Below, piece after piece: positions 48,694 to 58,867 of a stretch of 64,000 nucleotides of DNA. The notes below the pieces were generated by a model. That model saw nothing but the letters and a program-made list of their open reading frames with translations, was not told the origin of the DNA and did no database searches. The DNA is from Methanoculleus taiwanensis. GTDB lineage: Archaea; Halobacteriota; Methanomicrobia; Methanomicrobiales; Methanoculleaceae. Position 1 is the stretch's first letter. Each line of letters opens with the position of its first letter. Position numbers and translations under genes: made by a program. The DNA is taken from assembly GCF_004102725.1 (NCBI RefSeq), contig NZ_LHQS01000002.1, positions 186,001 through 250,000 of the forward strand, in the 5' to 3' direction.

Positions 48694-50796
48694 ATGAAAT
48701 CACGAGATATAGCAATCGTCGGTATTCTCCTCGCCATAGGGGCGATCGTGAGATACCTCTCTCTCCTGGTTCCAGGCCCAATCGTCTCGAACCTTGTAAT
48801 CGCCTTCTACTGCCTTGCCGTCATTCTCATCCTCCCGACGGTGAAGGAAGCAGTCGGCATCGGCATCGTCTCGGGAGTCGTCTGTGCACTGATCAGCCAC
48901 TCGGTCTTCCCGCCCGGGAACCTGATCAGCGAACCCATCGGCGCAATCGTCTGCCTTGGTGTCGCCCTCCTGCTCCGCGACCGTATCGTCGTTGCCCCTG
49001 CGGTAACGACTTTCATCGCCACGCTGGCAAGCGGCCTCACGTTCGTTGCCATTGCCATTCTGGCTCAGTACCCGGTTATCGTCGGGAAGTACGGCACGAT
49101 TGACGCTTTTCTGGTCGTCACGGTGCCGATCGTCCTGCTGGCCGCAGGTGTCAACGGCGTGGTTGCCCAGGCTCTCTACATTCCTGCATCCCGGGTTCTG
49201 ATGCGGACGCAGCGGCGTTCTGCACCGGGCGGCGGTGTGGGGAACGGCGGCCTTACCGTCCGGAATGCGGCGGTGGATGCGCCGATCAGCATGAGCAATG
49301 TATCCTACACCTACCCCCAGGGAACAGAGCCCGCCCTTGCCGGTATCGACCTTGACGTTGTGCGGGGAGAGTGCCTTCTCGTAACCGGGCCGACCGGCGC
49401 CGGGAAGACGACGCTCTGCCTTGCCGCCTCCGGTATTCTCTATCACGAATACGGCGGCGTGTTTGCCGGCAATCTCAGCATCGCCGGAAAGGATGTCGCG
49501 GCATACCGGGACATGGGTGAGATTGGAAGACAGATCGGGGTCGTCTTCGACGATGCCGACGCTCAGCTCATCTTCACGACCGTCGAAGAGGAAGTGGTCT
49601 CGGGTCTCGAGAACCAGGGACTCGACCGTGTCGAGATGCAGCGGCGGATGGACTATGTCACCGATGTCACCGGCATCGCCCACCTGCTCGAACGTGCACC
49701 GCATACCCTCTCCGGCGGCCAGAAGCAGCGGGTCACGATCGCAGCCACGCTGGCGCTCGGAACGGATCTCCTCATCCTTGACGAACCGACTGCGGAACTC
49801 GATACGATCGCCACCGAGGCAATCTTCCAGATCCTGCAGCGCCTGAAAGATGAAGGAAAGACGATCGTGATCGTCGAGCATAAAGTCGATGAGCTTGCCC
49901 GGCTCGCCGACCGGATGATCCTGGTAGAGGACGGACGGATCGCTGCCGAGGGAACGCCCGCCGAACTGCTGAAGAGCGACCGCATCAGGAGCCTCATCGA
50001 GGTCGACGATGCACCCACGCCTGATGTTCTCTCCGCTGCCCCGGTGAGCGTTCCTGCGCAGCCATCCGCAGGTATCAGCCCGATTATAACCGTGTGCGGG
50101 CTTGTCCACCGGTATGGCGAGGCGACCGCTCTTGCAGGCGTTGACCTCGAGATACTTTCCGGCGATATCGTCGCCATTGTCGGCGAGAACGGATCCGGGA
50201 AGACAACCCTTGTCAAACACTTTAACGGGCTGCTTCGGCCGACCGAGGGCACCGTTCTTGTCGACGGACTCGATGCGGCCACGACGCCGGTGACGGAGCT
50301 CGCCCGGCATGTCGGTCTCGTCTTCCAGAACCCCGATACCATGCTCTTTGCCGAGACGGTGGAAGAGGAGATCGCGTTCGGCCTTTCGAACATCGGGCTT
50401 GCTGATCACCAGGAAGTGATCGATGCCGTCCTCGAGGAGGTCGGTCTCACCGATCACCGGAATCAGTATCCCCGTTCGCTCAGCCGTGGAGAACGCCAGC
50501 GTCTTGCGCTTGCCTGTGTCATCGCTATGCGGCCGAAGGTGATCGTCCTCGACGAACCGACGACCGGACTCGATGCCAGGGAGACGCAGCGCGTGATGGA
50601 GATCGTCCAGCGGCTCCAGAGGGAGGGATGCACCATCCTGATGGTCACCCACAACATGCGGCTTGTGCGCGAGTATGCCGACCGCATCATTGCAATGGAA
50701 GACGGAATCATTCTCCGGGACGTCCGGAACTTTGAGGAGATTGCATGCCAGAAATTATGCAGTATATCAACAGGGACAGCTACTTCCACCGTTTAA
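48694..50796 (+). CDS. ECF-type transporter: fused S component and two ATPase domains
   Basis: A 700-residue single chain. Residues 1-175 are a multi-helix membrane domain resembling ECF S components (substrate capture), with IAFYCLAVILILPTVKEAV and ISHSVFPPGNLISEPIGAI; they look closest to TrpP-like ones, a tentative judgement. Residues about 205-450 form the first ABC ATPase (Walker A GPTGAGKTT near 232, signature LSGGQKQR, Walker B LLILDEPTAELD). Residues about 470-690 form the second (Walker A GENGSGKTT near 496, unusual signature LSRGERQR, Walker B VIVLDEPTTGLD). The T component is encoded next and overlaps by 52 nt. The usual ECF genes for S, A and A' are separate, so the fusion is noteworthy. 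Confidence 0.85.
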   Translation: MKSRDIAIVGILLAIGAIVRYLSLLVPGPIVSNLVIAFYCLAVILILPTVKEAVGIGIVSGVVCALISHSVFPPGNLISEPIGAIVCLGVALLLRDRIVVAPAVTTFIATLASGLTFVAIAILAQYPVIVGKYGTIDAFLVVTVPIVLLAAGVNGVVAQALYIPASRVLMRTQRRSAPGGGVGNGGLTVRNAAVDAPISMSNVSYTYPQGTEPALAGIDLDVVRGECLLVTGPTGAGKTTLCLAASGILYHEYGGVFAGNLSIAGKDVAAYRDMGEIGRQIGVVFDDADAQLIFTTVEEEVVSGLENQGLDRVEMQRRMDYVTDVTGIAHLLERAPHTLSGGQKQRVTIAATLALGTDLLILDEPTAELDTIATEAIFQILQRLKDEGKTIVIVEHKVDELARLADRMILVEDGRIAAEGTPAELLKSDRIRSLIEVDDAPTPDVLSAAPVSVPAQPSAGISPIITVCGLVHRYGEATALAGVDLEILSGDIVAIVGENGSGKTTLVKHFNGLLRPTEGTVLVDGLDAATTPVTELARHVGLVFQNPDTMLFAETVEEEIAFGLSNIGLADHQEVIDAVLEEVGLTDHRNQYPRSLSRGERQRLALACVIAMRPKVIVLDEPTTGLDARETQRVMEIVQRLQREGCTILMVTHNMRLVREYADRIIAMEDGIILRDVRNFEEIACQKLCSISTGTATSTV

Positions 50797-51518
50797 ATCC
50801 CATGACCAAGGTCGCCTTTACCGGGCTTGTGGTCGTCCTCGCCGTCATCCTGACCGAGGTTCCGGCGCTCACGCTGCTCGTCGGCCTTATCCTGGTTGCA
50901 GCAGCGGTGAGCGGTCTTGCCCGCGAACTTCTGCGGCAGATCCCCCTCCTCATATCCCTCGCGGTCAGTCTGCTCATCCTGACGGTGCTGACCCTGCAGA
51001 GCGGCGAGGTGCTCGGGTACCTGATCCCGATCGCTGGCGGGTACATCCCGATCACCACAGGTGCCATCGACCTTGCGGTTTCGATGACCCTGCGGTTTGT
51101 CGCGATGATCTTTGCCTTCCAGCTCTTCATCGTCTCCACGCAGCCACGCGATCTCGTGCAGGTGATGGACAGACTTCACATGCCGATCGATTACACGCTC
51201 ATGTTCCTGATCGCGCTGCGGTTTATTCCGAGCCTTCAGCTCGAGGGAAAGCGGATTCACGAAGCCCAGCTCGCCCGGGCGTATGCACCGGGAAAAGGGC
51301 TTATGGGAAAGATCAGGAGTCTCTTCCCGGTTGTCATCCCGCTGGTCTCAAACTCCCTCGGGAAAGCGAATGTCCTCGGCCTGACGATCGACCTGCGGGG
51401 GTACCGGAACGGGACGCGGACGCCTCTTCGCGAGGTTGGTTTCGGTGCCGCAGACGGGATCGGGTTCGCCCTGATGGCACTCTGCGCCGCAGGTTTCGTC
51501 GCCCTTATCCTCCTGTAA
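50745..51518 (+). CDS. ecfT: ECF transporter transmembrane T component
   Basis: Membrane coupling protein of 257 residues. It has the N-terminal NRDSYFHRLNPMTKVAFTGL motif typical of EcfT/CbiQ, four to five membrane helices, and two cytoplasmic coupling helices with Ala-Arg-Gly-type motifs: AQLARAYAPG near residue 178 and TIDLRGYRNG near residue 217. It overlaps the end of the fused S-A-A gene by 52 nt in another frame, so expression is probably translationally coupled and the complex would be two polypeptides. Confidence 0.88.
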   Translation: MPEIMQYINRDSYFHRLNPMTKVAFTGLVVVLAVILTEVPALTLLVGLILVAAAVSGLARELLRQIPLLISLAVSLLILTVLTLQSGEVLGYLIPIAGGYIPITTGAIDLAVSMTLRFVAMIFAFQLFIVSTQPRDLVQVMDRLHMPIDYTLMFLIALRFIPSLQLEGKRIHEAQLARAYAPGKGLMGKIRSLFPVVIPLVSNSLGKANVLGLTIDLRGYRNGTRTPLREVGFGAADGIGFALMALCAAGFVALILL

Positions 51519-53227: not shown

Positions 53228-53266
53228 GGTCTAAAGAAGAGCAGAAAAAATGGGGGAGTTTAGACC
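53228..53266 (-). terminator. Inverted repeat and U-tract at the end of the mtr operon
   Basis: TTTAGACC (53259-53266) and GGTCTAAA (53228-53235) are perfect 8-bp arms flanking the region just after mtrH and covering its stop codon. On the mtr message a T6 run (53245-53250) lies in the loop. This is the likely end of the mtr transcript. The upstream spacer from 52974 to 53227 holds no gene that I can support. Confidence 0.5.
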
Positions 53267-54282
53267 AGCCTGAAGAGCGGGTGAGTGTCGACTTTCGGTT
53301 CGAGTCCGAACTCTTTGGCTGCCTCTGCGAGCACAATGTCGGAGAATGCGATTGCAGTGGAGGCACCTTCACAGTTCTCGATCGGACCGTACATGATCAG
53401 GTCGGCACCGAGGGTGGCGGCCATGATGTTACAGCCGATGTCGGGGCTCGACCAGGCGGCCTGGCGGATACCCTCGAAGCCACCGAAGTGGTGGTGTGCC
53501 ATCTGCTCAAGGAGGAGGTCCTTGCCCTTGTACTGCTCGGCGAGGACGTTCTTTCTCCAGCGCTTGAGCCACGTCCAGGAGACGGTCATGTTGTGGTAGG
53601 CACCACCGGTCGGCAGGCCGTGGATGGCCTTGCAGGCGAGGATCTCACGGAACGAGCCGCCGGAACCGATACCGAGCGGGGTTGCCGCGGTGTCGAGGAT
53701 CGGGCGGGTGATACCGCATTCCTCTGCGATGCCCATCATGCTCTTCTCCTGTCCGGCGACGCCACCTTCGGCGAGCACCTGCTCACGGCCACGGACGGAC
53801 GGGTCACCGGGGTTGAACGCGAGGACGATAGCGGCGTTGACGTCGCTCTCCTTGAGTGCCTGGATGTTCTCCGGGGTGATCGAACCGTTGATCGAATTGT
53901 AGATCGCGCGGTCGGCAAGGCCGACTTCGGTGACGTACTTGCAGGCGTGGGCGAGTGCCGCCGGTGCCGACGAGTCCATCAGGAAGGCGGTCTTGTTGTC
54001 GATGCTGTCGAACCAGCTGAAGTAGCTCTCGAACGCCTCACCGTACTCGGCGATGATCTGGATGAAGTGGGGAACTCCGGTGATGTCGGAGAGTTCCATA
54101 CAGCGGTTCCAGAGTGCCTCTGCCCGGGGCTTGTCGATCTTGCCCGTGTGGTCGTCGAGCACCGTTTCGTGCTTGTTATAGAAGATCGATGCGCCGAGAA
54201 CCCGCGGGTATTCACCAGGCTGCCCACCGATCTTGGTACCGTTGAAATCGAGTACCGTCTGTTCTTTCTCAAACTTGAACAT
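53260..54282 (-). CDS. mtrH: Methyl-H4MPT:CoM methyltransferase subunit MtrH
   Basis: Transfers the methyl group from methyl-H4MPT to the Co(I) cobamide on MtrA; peripheral, cytoplasmic subunit. The 340-residue TIM-barrel protein starts MFKFEKEQTVLDFNGTKIGG, the usual MtrH start, with a GGAGGT ribosome site 10-15 nt upstream, so ATG 54282 is chosen over an in-frame TTG. Other landmarks are FLMDSSAPAALAHACKYVTE, AIVLAFNPGDPSVRGREQVL, and TPLGIGSGGSFREILACKAI. Last gene of the operon. Confidence 0.96.
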   Translation of the reverse strand: MFKFEKEQTVLDFNGTKIGGQPGEYPRVLGASIFYNKHETVLDDHTGKIDKPRAEALWNRCMELSDITGVPHFIQIIAEYGEAFESYFSWFDSIDNKTAFLMDSSAPAALAHACKYVTEVGLADRAIYNSINGSITPENIQALKESDVNAAIVLAFNPGDPSVRGREQVLAEGGVAGQEKSMMGIAEECGITRPILDTAATPLGIGSGGSFREILACKAIHGLPTGGAYHNMTVSWTWLKRWRKNVLAEQYKGKDLLLEQMAHHHFGGFEGIRQAAWSSPDIGCNIMAATLGADLIMYGPIENCEGASTAIAFSDIVLAEAAKEFGLEPKVDTHPLFRLV

Positions 54283-54297
54283 ATTTTTCAAACCTCC

Positions 54298-55038
54298 TTA
54301 CACTAAGCCGCCCAGTTTCGGCAGCAACACCAACAACATCATGAATACGATCAAACCGGCAACCAGTCCGTACAGGATGCCGATATCGCGTCCGACCTTC
54401 CTTCCGACACGCTGTGCAATCTCAGCGTCGACGAACTCGATCTGCTCTTCGATAGCGTCGAGTCTCGATTCGATCTCGAGGTACTGCGGGTTTGCACCTG
54501 CAACAGCGCCGCCCATTTCGGCGCCGCCTGCCTCTTTGACCTCGATGATCATGGGTTCGGCACCGAACGCGCCGGGGTCTCTGGCGGTGAGCTCCTTGAT
54601 CTTCGCGGAGATCGCACCCATGTCCTCGGACTCCATGATATCGACCATCTCGACCTGCTCCTGGAGCCGCTTGATGGCCGCATCATCGAGGTTCTCGATG
54701 AACGGGATGGCGCCCTGTGCGCCGACGATCTTACCGCCGGAGACACCGTCCTTGTGCAGAGCCATGAAACTCTGCCCGGAAAGGTGTCCCTTGACCTCCG
54801 TTCCGCAGTTGAGGACGAACCTGATGTTGGGGTTGGAGATTATGTTTGCGATGATCTTCTCAAGACCGAGGTTCTCGGTCTTACAGGAACCGGCGATTGC
54901 CGCTCCTGCGTTGCAGATGGCCTGCTCGTCAAGGTGGGAACCCATGGTGACGACGGCGACACAGCTCTGCGGGTCTCCCGTGTGGAAGTCACCCTGCACG
55001 ACTGGCCATCCGCTGGCCGGAGACTTCTTCTCTGCCAT
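54298..55038 (-). CDS. Fusion of a second MtrA cobamide domain with MtrG
   Basis: Two parts in one 246-residue chain. Residues 1 to about 173 are almost identical to MtrA encoded 0.9 kb upstream (five amino-acid differences by eye) and keep the cobamide-ligand His85 in [10 protein letters not shown]. Residues about 180-246 are a complete Mtr[21 protein letters not shown], the basic [16 protein letters not shown], and a C-terminal membrane helix. In typical operons MtrG is a small separate protein at this position (mtrF-mtrG-mtrH), so the MtrA copy has been added to its N-terminus. It would place an extra cobamide domain on the membrane complex. Confidence 0.88.
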
Positions 55039-55039
55039 G

Positions 55040-55252
55040 TTAGATCGCCCCCAGGAAGACTGCCGGAACCAGGATGAGCACCATGGCGGCGAGGATGCCG
55101 GCTGCGAAGCCGACGAGACCGCCGCTCTGGATACCTGACTCGAGCTTGTTCGTGCGGGCCATGATCTGGGCCTTGTAGCGGATGTTGTTCATCGACCTGT
55201 CGATGGCTGCCATCCGGATAGGGCCTGCTGCCTTGTTACCTTCTTCTGCCAC
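55040..55252 (-). CDS. mtrF: Methyl-H4MPT:CoM methyltransferase subunit MtrF
   Basis: Small subunit of 70 residues with one C-terminal membrane helix (about 45-68, [20 protein letters not shown]). The amphipathic N-terminus reads [20 protein letters not shown]. It lies between mtrA and the A-G fusion, the position expected from the order E-D-C-B-A-F-G-H. Confidence 0.9.
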
Positions 55253-55257
55253 TTATA

Positions 55258-55980
55258 TCACCCGAGCAAGATGAACCCCAGAATGGCGAACGACACGATC
55301 AGACCGATCATGACACCCTCGACCTTTCCTGCATACACACCGGCTGCAAATCTGTCGCGGTATCCGATATCGGTGACCATCTGTTCGATGATCTTCATGC
55401 GGGCGTGGATCAGGGCAAGCTCGCCGGAGAGTGGGCGGACTTCGCCACCGACTTCCTCCTCTGCGCCGCCTGCTTCCTTGACCTCGATGATCATGGGATC
55501 GGCACCGAACGCGCCGGGGTCTCTGGCGGTGAGCTCCTTGATCTTCGCGGAGATCGCACCCATGTCCTCGGACTCCATGATATCGACCATCTCGATCTGT
55601 TCCTGGAACCGCTTGATGGCCGCATCATCGAGGTTCTCGATGAACGGGATGGCGCCCTGTGCGCCGACGATCTTACCGCCGGAGATACCGTCCTTGTGCA
55701 GAGCCATGAAACTCTGCCCGGAAAGGTGTCCCTTGACCTCCGTTCCGCAGTTGAGGACGAACCTGATGTTGGGGTTGGAGATGATGTTTGCAATGATCTT
55801 CTCAAGACCGAGGTTCTCGGTCTTACAGGAACCGGCGATTGCCGCTCCTGCATTGCAGATGGCCTGCTCGTCAAGGTGGGAACCCATGGTGACGACAGCG
55901 ACACAGCTCTGCGGGTCTCCCGTGTGGAAGTCACCCTGCACGACTGGCCATCCACTGGCCGGAGATTTCTTATCTGCCAT
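55258..55980 (-). CDS. mtrA: Methyl-H4MPT:CoM methyltransferase subunit MtrA (corrinoid)
   Basis: Carries the cobamide that shuttles the methyl group between MtrH and coenzyme M. The 240-residue protein has the cytosolic cobamide domain (residues 1-173; axial-ligand His85 in [10 protein letters not shown]). A linker and a C-terminal helix with [19 protein letters not shown] anchor it in the membrane. The first 173 codons are repeated almost base for base in the downstream A-G fusion gene. Start ATG at 55980 follows an AGGTGA ribosome site. Confidence 0.96.
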
Positions 55981-55991
55981 GTTACTTCACC

Positions 55992-56276
55992 TCACACCAG
56001 TCCAAACACGACGACACCTGCGATAAGCAGGCCGATTGCCATCCCGTACCAGAATGCGGTCACGCTGCCGGCGATCTTGAGAACGCCTTCCCTGTTCGGG
56101 AACGAAGCAAGGAAGTTCCCCTCACCGGAGAGCATGCCGATCAGGTCTTCGGAGATCTTCTCAAGCTCGGCCACCTGTTCGAGGACCGGTGCATATGACT
56201 CACCGGCGGTGGTCACGAGACCGATTATCGGATCTGCGACGAGGCCGAACTCAGGAAGCACAAGAATGTATCCCAT
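55992..56276 (-). CDS. mtrB: Methyl-H4MPT:CoM methyltransferase subunit MtrB
   Basis: 94-residue subunit: hydrophilic N-terminal region with LVADPIIGLVTTAGESYAPV and EKISEDLIGMLSGEGNFLAS, and one C-terminal membrane helix (about 72-93). It starts immediately after the mtrC stop with no spacer. Confidence 0.93.
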   Translation of the reverse strand: MGYILVLPEFGLVADPIIGLVTTAGESYAPVLEQVAELEKISEDLIGMLSGEGNFLASFPNREGVLKIAGSVTAFWYGMAIGLLIAGVVVFGLV

Positions 56277-57128
56277 TTAGGCACCTCCCTTCGGCTCCAG
56301 AATCGGCTTTGCATCGAGCCATGCATATGCATCGCGCTTCGAGAGCTTGATGTAGTTTGCATAGGTGTAGAACCAGCCTGCTACAGAGACCACGAGCGAG
56401 ATGACTGCCGGAATGAATCCGATGAATGCAAACGACATGACCGAGACGACGATCATTGAAAGGAATCCGCACTCCGCGGCAAGCGTAAGCGTCCGGTCCT
56501 GCTGTTCGCCGGGGCCGAGACAGGCGTTGAACGAGTGCTGGATGGCGATTGCACCGAGCATGAAGAGAACGGCTACAATGCTGCCTCCGATGACCGAGGC
56601 GCCGTACGACGCAACGACGAACCCGAGGAAGGTCGTCGAACCGACGGCAAGGCCGAAGAAGTCGAACGTTCCACCGACCATTGCGATGAGCCCAAGGAGC
56701 GTCAGCGAACCGACGATGGCGAGCTCGGTCAGGGATATGATCATGACGGGGATGTCCATCCGGACGATCTTGTTCGCCAGGAACCCGGCGACGGCGCCGA
56801 CGATCGCTGCCACGATAAGGGCGGTGATCGGTGCGAGAATCCCGGTCGTGGTAGCAAGCAGCGTGGCCACGACACCGGAGCCGAAGGCGATCATACCTGC
56901 GGACGGCACACCGGTACCGAGACCGTAACTGCAGAGGTGCTTGATTGTGTCGGTACCCCAGACAAGGGCGGCAACAGCGCCGAGTCCTCCGAAGAACGAG
57001 AAGACCGTGGTGTCGAAGAGTACGTTCAGGTACGTCAGGTAGATGAGCACTACGGACCCGATGAGGCCGTAGATCAGAATCTGGTTGTGCGGGACGCCGC
57101 CTGCACTGGCTTCAATTTTCACTGACAT
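56277..57128 (-). CDS. mtrC: Methyl-H4MPT:CoM methyltransferase subunit MtrC
   Basis: Integral membrane subunit of the sodium-translocating complex, 283 residues, with about seven or eight membrane segments. Landmarks are TIKHLCSYGLGTGVPSAGMI and MLGAIAIQHSFNACLGPGEQ (about residues 190-210). It sits between mtrD and mtrB with no gap. Confidence 0.95.
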   Translation of the reverse strand: MSVKIEASAGGVPHNQILIYGLIGSVVLIYLTYLNVLFDTTVFSFFGGLGAVAALVWGTDTIKHLCSYGLGTGVPSAGMIAFGSGVVATLLATTTGILAPITALIVAAIVGAVAGFLANKIVRMDIPVMIISLTELAIVGSLTLLGLIAMVGGTFDFFGLAVGSTTFLGFVVASYGASVIGGSIVAVLFMLGAIAIQHSFNACLGPGEQQDRTLTLAAECGFLSMIVVSVMSFAFIGFIPAVISLVVSVAGWFYTYANYIKLSKRDAYAWLDAKPILEPKGGA

Positions 57129-57971
57129 TTAGAGCACCCCTACCAGCATGATTGCAAAGATTCCGGTAACTGCGGACGCAACAGCTGCTGCGATAACGGC
57201 GCGCGGGAACCGCTTGAACTTGGGGTCGTGCGGTCCTTCGATGGTACCGGTGATGTTGTATGCTGCAAGCACAGCGTTGACGAGGAACATACCGACTGCG
57301 AAGATACCGGCGAGCGAGATTGCAACGGGTGCGATCTCCTCGACCGATGCGTTCATTGCAACGGGGAGAACCTCCTCATAGACGCCGAGGAGCATGAGGT
57401 AGATGAGCGTACCGCCAAGACCACCGAGCGTACCGCCGATGACACCGCCGACGTAGGAGATGAACGGCAGGCCGTGTCCTTCAGTACCCTGGCTCTTGTA
57501 TGCGGGGAACGTATCGCCCGTGATCGGGTCCTTGTCGACCTTACCGGATGCGGCAGGGATACCCATGCCGAAGATGTAGGTGACGTTGACCATGAGACAG
57601 GTGATCGCCATCATCAGACCGCCGCCGACTGCACCGCCGGCGAGCGCGACTGCGAGGCCGAACTCAGCCGCCCATGCGCCGCCGAAGAGTCCGGCAAGAC
57701 CGGCACCGGCCGCAAGCATGGCGACACCGGTAGCGATACCTGGAGCTTGACCCATTGCGGCAGGTGCACCACCGACCGGGACGAAGTGAACGCCGAAGGC
57801 GATCAGGATGCCGCCGATGATGATACCGATAAGCGCGATGAGCCCTGCCATCTGCACGACGAAGAAGGCGATAGCGAGAGCGATAATGACGAGTACAATT
57901 CCTCCTACGAGACCGATTGCCGTGGGGGGCTGAACGCCGCCGGTCTGTTTAGGTCCACCGAGCGCGCTCAT
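57129..57971 (-). CDS. mtrD: Methyl-H4MPT:CoM methyltransferase subunit MtrD
   Basis: Membrane subunit of 280 residues, about six or seven helices. It has a glycine/alanine-rich membrane region (GLAVALAGGAVGGGLMMAIT) and a polar loop with GDTFPAYKSQGTEGHGLPFI (about residues 155-174). It starts 4 nt before the mtrE stop. With MtrC and MtrE it forms the sodium-conducting core. Confidence 0.95.
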   Translation of the reverse strand: MSALGGPKQTGGVQPPTAIGLVGGIVLVIIALAIAFFVVQMAGLIALIGIIIGGILIAFGVHFVPVGGAPAAMGQAPGIATGVAMLAAGAGLAGLFGGAWAAEFGLAVALAGGAVGGGLMMAITCLMVNVTYIFGMGIPAASGKVDKDPITGDTFPAYKSQGTEGHGLPFISYVGGVIGGTLGGLGGTLIYLMLLGVYEEVLPVAMNASVEEIAPVAISLAGIFAVGMFLVNAVLAAYNITGTIEGPHDPKFKRFPRAVIAAAVASAVTGIFAIMLVGVL

Positions 57972-58867
57972 GCCGACGCCTCCTCGGTTTCGGTCGTGTA
58001 GGGTCCGAAATTCTTTCTTGCCCAGACCTCGATGTAGCGGTCGATGACCATGAAGACGAGAACCAGGACGACACCGACGATGATCGGTGCCCAGACGTTG
58101 AGTTCCTCAAAGACGACGGTACGCCAGAGCTCGAGGAATACGATCAGGCCGAAGCAGACACCCGATGCCGGGCCGCCGAGCTTGGCGCTGAACCAGCCGT
58201 TGTCGATGGAGCTTCTCTGACCGGCTTCCGCGTAGCGGACGATGTTACCGGATGCGGAGATCGGCACACCTGCACCGAACTTCTGCTCCTGGTACTGCCG
58301 CTCCTTTCCGTAGAACGGGTTACCGGTTGCAGATCCGGCTGCACCGAGTGCGATACCCCAGACGAGGCCGAGCAGCGGCAGCGGGAAGGGGTGCCCGAGT
58401 GCGGCGTTCATCAGGTGGCACATTGCCACGGTGGTGAATATAGCGACGAAAGCGTGCGCCATGGTCACGGTGGTAACCGACTTGATGATGTCGATGTACA
58501 CCGGCTGTCCAAACTTCGCGAGACTTGCGGTACGCCCGAGGTAGGCAGTCGTTGCGTACACACCCTGTACGAAGACTGCGAGAGCGCTTCCTACCACGAT
58601 TGCAAGAATCGCGTTTATCTGCATCGCCATGAATGCCCAAGCAATGCCTGCACCCAATGCAACCCAGAGACCGTAGGCGGGGGGTTCACCGGCAACAGCC
58701 TTGTTGAATATACGGTGAATGTATCCCATCTGCGGAGCGAGCTGAACCTGAGAGTTCGGGTCACCCTGTGAACCGATATCGGATTCAGTGTCTTCCGCAG
58801 CGCCGGCAACGGTTGCAAGAGCACCTGCCATTGCGGTAATTCCGATGCCAAACAATATCTGTTCCAT
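57968..58867 (-). CDS. mtrE: Methyl-H4MPT:CoM methyltransferase subunit MtrE
   Basis: First gene of the mtr operon; sodium-pump membrane subunit of 299 residues with six or so helices. Landmarks include GSQGDPNSQVQLAPQMGYIH near residue 33-52, GLVWGIALGAAGSATGNPFY, and a long cytoplasmic loop QYQEQKFGAGVPISASGNIV. A GGAGG ribosome site (58875-58879) lies 8 nt before the ATG, and TATA elements lie further upstream in the mcrA-mtrE spacer. Confidence 0.96.
   Translation of the reverse strand: MEQILFGIGITAMAGALATVAGAAEDTESDIGSQGDPNSQVQLAPQMGYIHRIFNKAVAGEPPAYGLWVALGAGIAWAFMAMQINAILAIVVGSALAVFVQGVYATTAYLGRTASLAKFGQPVYIDIIKSVTTVTMAHAFVAIFTTVAMCHLMNAALGHPFPLPLLGLVWGIALGAAGSATGNPFYGKERQYQEQKFGAGVPISASGNIVRYAEAGQRSSIDNGWFSAKLGGPASGVCFGLIVFLELWRTVVFEELNVWAPIIVGVVLVLVFMVIDRYIEVWARKNFGPYTTETEEASA

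Follow-up and report, generated by a model that had tools for sequence, protein, structure and literature searches.

An MtrA–MtrG fusion gene of the mtrA-2b type in the mtr operon of Methanoculleus taiwanensis, and its probable role as carrier of a second cobamide shuttle

The mtr operon of M. taiwanensis contains a gene in which a cobamide-binding MtrA domain is fused in frame to MtrG, and recurrent gene conversion between this domain and the separate mtrA gene of the operon (mtrA-1) keeps the two copies near-identical. The fused product probably replaces MtrG in the Mtr complex and carries a second cobamide shuttle per protomer, six per trimer, homogenised with mtrA-1. The fusion is already known: it was published in 2015 as mtrA-2b, and M. 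taiwanensis is one more example. Wang et al. 2015 reported the MtrA-MtrG fusion from each of the eight members of the order then at hand and showed its MtrA domain to be homogenised with mtrA-1 by gene conversion (PMC4632066); a later survey, using other means, also picked up this gene as one of the concerted pairs of long standing (PMC6053082). The gene described here shares with mtrA-2b the domain order, the position between mtrF and mtrH, the taxonomic order and the homogenisation with mtrA-1, and shows no difference of substance.

Within the window (the whole 64,000-nucleotide stretch of DNA that was analysed), the fusion ORF lies on the minus strand at 54298..55038, with the ATG at 55038, the stop at 54298 and 246 sense codons. 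Pfam assigned residues 4-174 of the product to MtrA (PF04208, E 9e-85, far above the curated cut-off) and residues 184-237 to MtrG (PF04210, E 4e-23, 81.5 bits against a cut-off of 27), and both NCBIfam equivalog models scored above their cut-offs (TIGR01111 mtrA, 297.6 against 249.15 bits; TIGR01149 mtrG, 79.3 against 50.65 bits). The in-frame fusion of an MtrA domain with His85 to MtrG was thus described correctly in the earlier note as to coordinates, strand and frame. The second MtrA domain (residues 1-174, 54517..55038, minus strand) was delimited by its DNA identity to mtrA-1; solved MtrA chains showed 42-61% identity to it, and its His85 corresponds to the axial cobamide histidine (His84 in Methanothermobacter numbering). 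A Gly/Ala-rich junction (residues 175-183, 54490..54516, minus strand), delimited by comparison of the junctions of 56 loci, opens with an in-frame ATG (Met175) and leads to the MtrG part (residues 184-246, 54298..54489, minus strand), to which a long stalk/membrane helix was assigned from the PF04210 match, alignment with the MtrG chains 9qtq_S and 8q3v_G, and a structural model. This predicted single-chain model is of low confidence (mean pLDDT 59) and has a domain-linker-helix layout with one long helix at 186-243. The earlier note spoke of a full MtrG; MtrG is indeed fused, but the PF04210 match opens only at profile position 10, and the first approximately nine profile positions, with the N-terminal strand segment of canonical MtrG (e.g. 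IPSVIVDPxEY), are replaced by the Gly/Ala-rich linker ending in NPQ(F/Y)LEIE. Since the fused gene passes the NCBI mtrA equivalog model, automatic annotation can label the gene as another copy of mtrA, with the result that mtrG may seem to be missing.

All genes of the operon lie on the minus strand in the order E-D-C-B-A1-F-A2G-H, in which A2G is the fusion. The first gene, mtrE (57968..58867, PF04206), is followed by mtrD (57129..57971, PF04207), mtrC (56277..57128, PF04211), mtrB (55992..56276, PF05440), mtrA-1 (55258..55980, PF04208 and TIGR01111), mtrF (55040..55252, PF09472), the fusion, and mtrH (53260..54291, PF02007 and alignment). The product of mtrA-1 is a complete MtrA of 240 aa with its own anchor helix, so the separate upstream mtrA of the earlier note is present; mtrF is a separate gene of 70 aa, and MtrH, 343 aa, has an insert at approximately residues 249-277 that is typical of the order. 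The canonical Mtr complexes of M. marburgensis (8Q3V) and M. mazei (9QTQ-9QTS) share all eight subunits and the EDCBAFGH order of the operon; they differ in that each protomer has a single MtrA domain and that MtrG is free and short, at 72-86 residues. A family search of the whole genome recovered exactly two MtrA domains, those of the fusion and mtrA-1, and one MtrG. A promoter and terminator scan gave sites no more frequent than chance. Near the operon, on the plus strand at 48694-51518, is an energy-coupling-type transporter composed of a protein with two ABC ATPase domains and a CbiQ-like partner, for which cobalt or a cobamide is one possible substrate.

Homogenisation of the two MtrA copies was judged by tree and site-pattern tests. 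In the window, the pair showed about 97% DNA identity (96.9% over 522 bp; 0.973 in the 38-species set described below), differed at 16 of 174 codons, five or six of these changing the amino acid, and formed sisters in the DNA tree with support of 100/96. Among the 38 species with both MtrA copies complete, the two domains of one genome had a mean DNA identity of 96.4% and a mean protein identity of 97.8%, compared with 76.2% and 79% for domains of different genomes; 36 of the 38 pairs were sisters in the DNA tree, and a single clade of all second copies (A2) was rejected (p-AU 1.8e-76). Comparison with the nearest relative revealed 45 species-specific sites at which both copies agreed and no copy-specific site, indicating that conversion has been active since the split from that relative. 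The copies are similar from the ATG onwards to approximately codon 165, past which they become less alike, and the 40 nt upstream of the two starts are no more alike within genomes (0.368) than between them (0.357).

As conversion alone could keep the second domain MtrA-like, the informative genomes are those in which conversion has lapsed. At three such loci (L089, L106 and L116), the copies were 83-84% identical in DNA, with a dS of 0.71-0.95 and a dN/dS, covering both copies jointly, of 0.07-0.11. A ratio this low at such divergence indicates that the two MtrA domains, taken jointly, are under strong purifying selection. The copies at these loci differ at 20-25 residues, nearly all outside near-invariant positions, a contrast that is partly circular because invariance was defined from these very sequences. 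His85 of the second copy was kept in all 56 fusion loci. The three loci also provide natural cases for the study of lapsed gene conversion.

In the solved Mtr complexes, MtrA, MtrB, MtrF and MtrG form a trimeric stalk with their N-termini at the cytoplasmic tip, and the cobamide domain of MtrA, tethered by a disordered linker, moves back and forth between MtrH and MtrCDE (PMC10998594; PMC12774963). One polypeptide would take the place of MtrG in the stalk and would carry, attached to the cytoplasmic N-terminus of its MtrG part by a short flexible linker, a further cobamide-binding MtrA domain that acts as a shuttle. With two equivalent shuttles in every protomer, the number of cobamides in the trimeric complex would rise from three to six, and the near-identity kept by conversion would allow both MtrA domains to use the same docking partners, MtrH and MtrCDE. 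The MtrG-linked domain would start from the tip of the stalk as MtrA does, and its linker resembles that of MtrA-1 but is, by the landmarks used, approximately 5-6 residues shorter, so that it is not certain whether the domain reaches MtrCDE. That a single polypeptide is made, binds cobamide and works as a shuttle is what we infer from these comparisons. In the openly licensed literature, protein-level evidence for the fused protein was found for no member of the Methanomicrobiales, nor were usable data on its expression, and none of the solved Mtr structures matched contains the fusion. The second cobamide site per protomer proposed in the earlier note, which may alter methyl-transfer kinetics or stoichiometry, fits the retention of His85 in all copies, the purifying selection and the lack of a conserved MtrG start; its implied restriction to one operon does not hold.

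An improbable alternative is that the second domain, although produced and folded, has no shuttle function and contributes to structure or assembly, for instance by helping to hold MtrH at the stalk, while conversion passively keeps it MtrA-like. MtrH docks on a beta-sheet formed by the N-termini of the stalk (PMC12774963), and the fused MtrG is without its usual N-terminal strand, which would locate the extra domain at this very docking site. A purely structural role agrees less well with the preservation of the residues surrounding His85, together with His85 itself, in all fusions, and with the confinement of nearly all differences in the pairs that escaped conversion to less conserved positions, subject to the circularity mentioned above. 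In M. mazei, Arg5 of MtrB bridges to MtrH; in the MtrB encoded at 55992-56276, this residue is Leu while Glu9 is kept, and MtrH docking may therefore differ in detail.

Less probable still is an internal start giving a separate small MtrG, with the upstream MtrA part being a soluble extra MtrA or hardly made. The in-frame ATG at residue 175 lies at the junction in the window and would suit such a start. Across the 56 loci, however, a junction ATG occurred in only four lineages, so that translating MtrG separately is not a conserved arrangement; a second internal ATG, at about residue 163, lies within the MtrA domain, and the main start is preceded, 6 nt upstream, by a plausible ribosome-binding sequence, GGGGGCGA. 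The internal MtrG start, which the earlier note had named as an observation that would speak against the fused protein, was thus not recovered as a conserved feature.

The fusion was recovered across the order when Methanomicrobiales were searched, as the earlier note had proposed. Among the matches listed, most Methanomicrobiales genomes had the MtrG match inside a long open frame of about 200-320 aa, for the most part 240-320 aa, whereas MtrG frames in the rest of the phylum were 73-143 aa; outside the order, mtrA, mtrF and mtrG were all separate at the loci with readable operons. The fusion occurred in all sampled families of Methanomicrobiales, including complete single-contig genomes and cultured strains, and is thus the order-wide state, as published in 2015, rather than a peculiarity of one operon. 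Recent duplication in M. taiwanensis was likewise rejected, as the fusion extends across the order and homogenisation is confined to the MtrA domain. The six short frames checked (G015, G018, G019, G024, G026 and G057) all end at a contig end, which fits the tendency of near-identical repeats to break assemblies and may explain some of the genomes without a match. Although contigs thus often stop inside the repeats, the chance that the fusion itself is an assembly, binning or frameshift artefact is negligible, since 16 codons distinguish the two copies, both continue into unique flanks within a single contig, and relatives, among them several single-contig genomes and cultured strains, have the identical structure in many independent genomes.

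In M. mazei, each Mtr protomer contains an MtrH dimer and one MtrA domain, giving six MtrH per three MtrA, and the site of the outer MtrH seems unreachable; the authors of the structure question whether this outer subunit takes part (PMC12774963). We consider it an attractive but speculative and rather improbable idea that a shuttle hung from MtrG might serve the outer site, giving six shuttles for six active sites; if true, both halves of the MtrH dimer would be productive. All Methanomicrobiales examined (53260-54291 in the window; L031-L118) have an MtrH insert of approximately 27-33 residues after a conserved basic WLKRW stretch, and in M. mazei the matching basic stretch is located where the active-site cavity of MtrH opens. 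The insert was absent from the other members of the phylum read, Methanocella-like genomes included. Within the order the insert is a single shared event and proves nothing on a partnership with the extra MtrA domain, and it was rejected as such a partner because Methanocella-like genomes have an MtrA-MtrF fusion without it.

Mtr carries out the sodium-pumping step of methanogenesis, and the stoichiometry assigned to it comes from species whose protomers have a single MtrA domain. In the Methanomicrobiales, which are common hydrogenotrophic methanogens, and independently in the Methanococcales and Methanocella, the shuttle appears to have been doubled, and mechanistic models from M. marburgensis and M. 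mazei may fail for these lineages. The parallel MtrA-MtrF fusion, mtrA-2a, was reported from Methanococcales and one Methanocella by Wang et al. 2015, who treat it as an independent origin (PMC4632066). It resembles the present fusion in placing a second MtrA domain, near-identical to mtrA-1, on another stalk subunit, and differs in that MtrA is joined to MtrF, a separate 70 aa gene in the window, instead of MtrG. Only one Methanocella-type species with MtrA-MtrF was available to Wang et al. 2015; three Methanocella-like genomes of family f14 (L129, L130 and L131) carried the MtrA-MtrF fusion, and their fused MtrA domains matched mtrA-1 at 99.6-100% identity. At L131 (G233), two consecutive MtrG-like frames were located between the MtrA-MtrF fusion and mtrH (approximately 1847-2400 in minus-strand coordinates).
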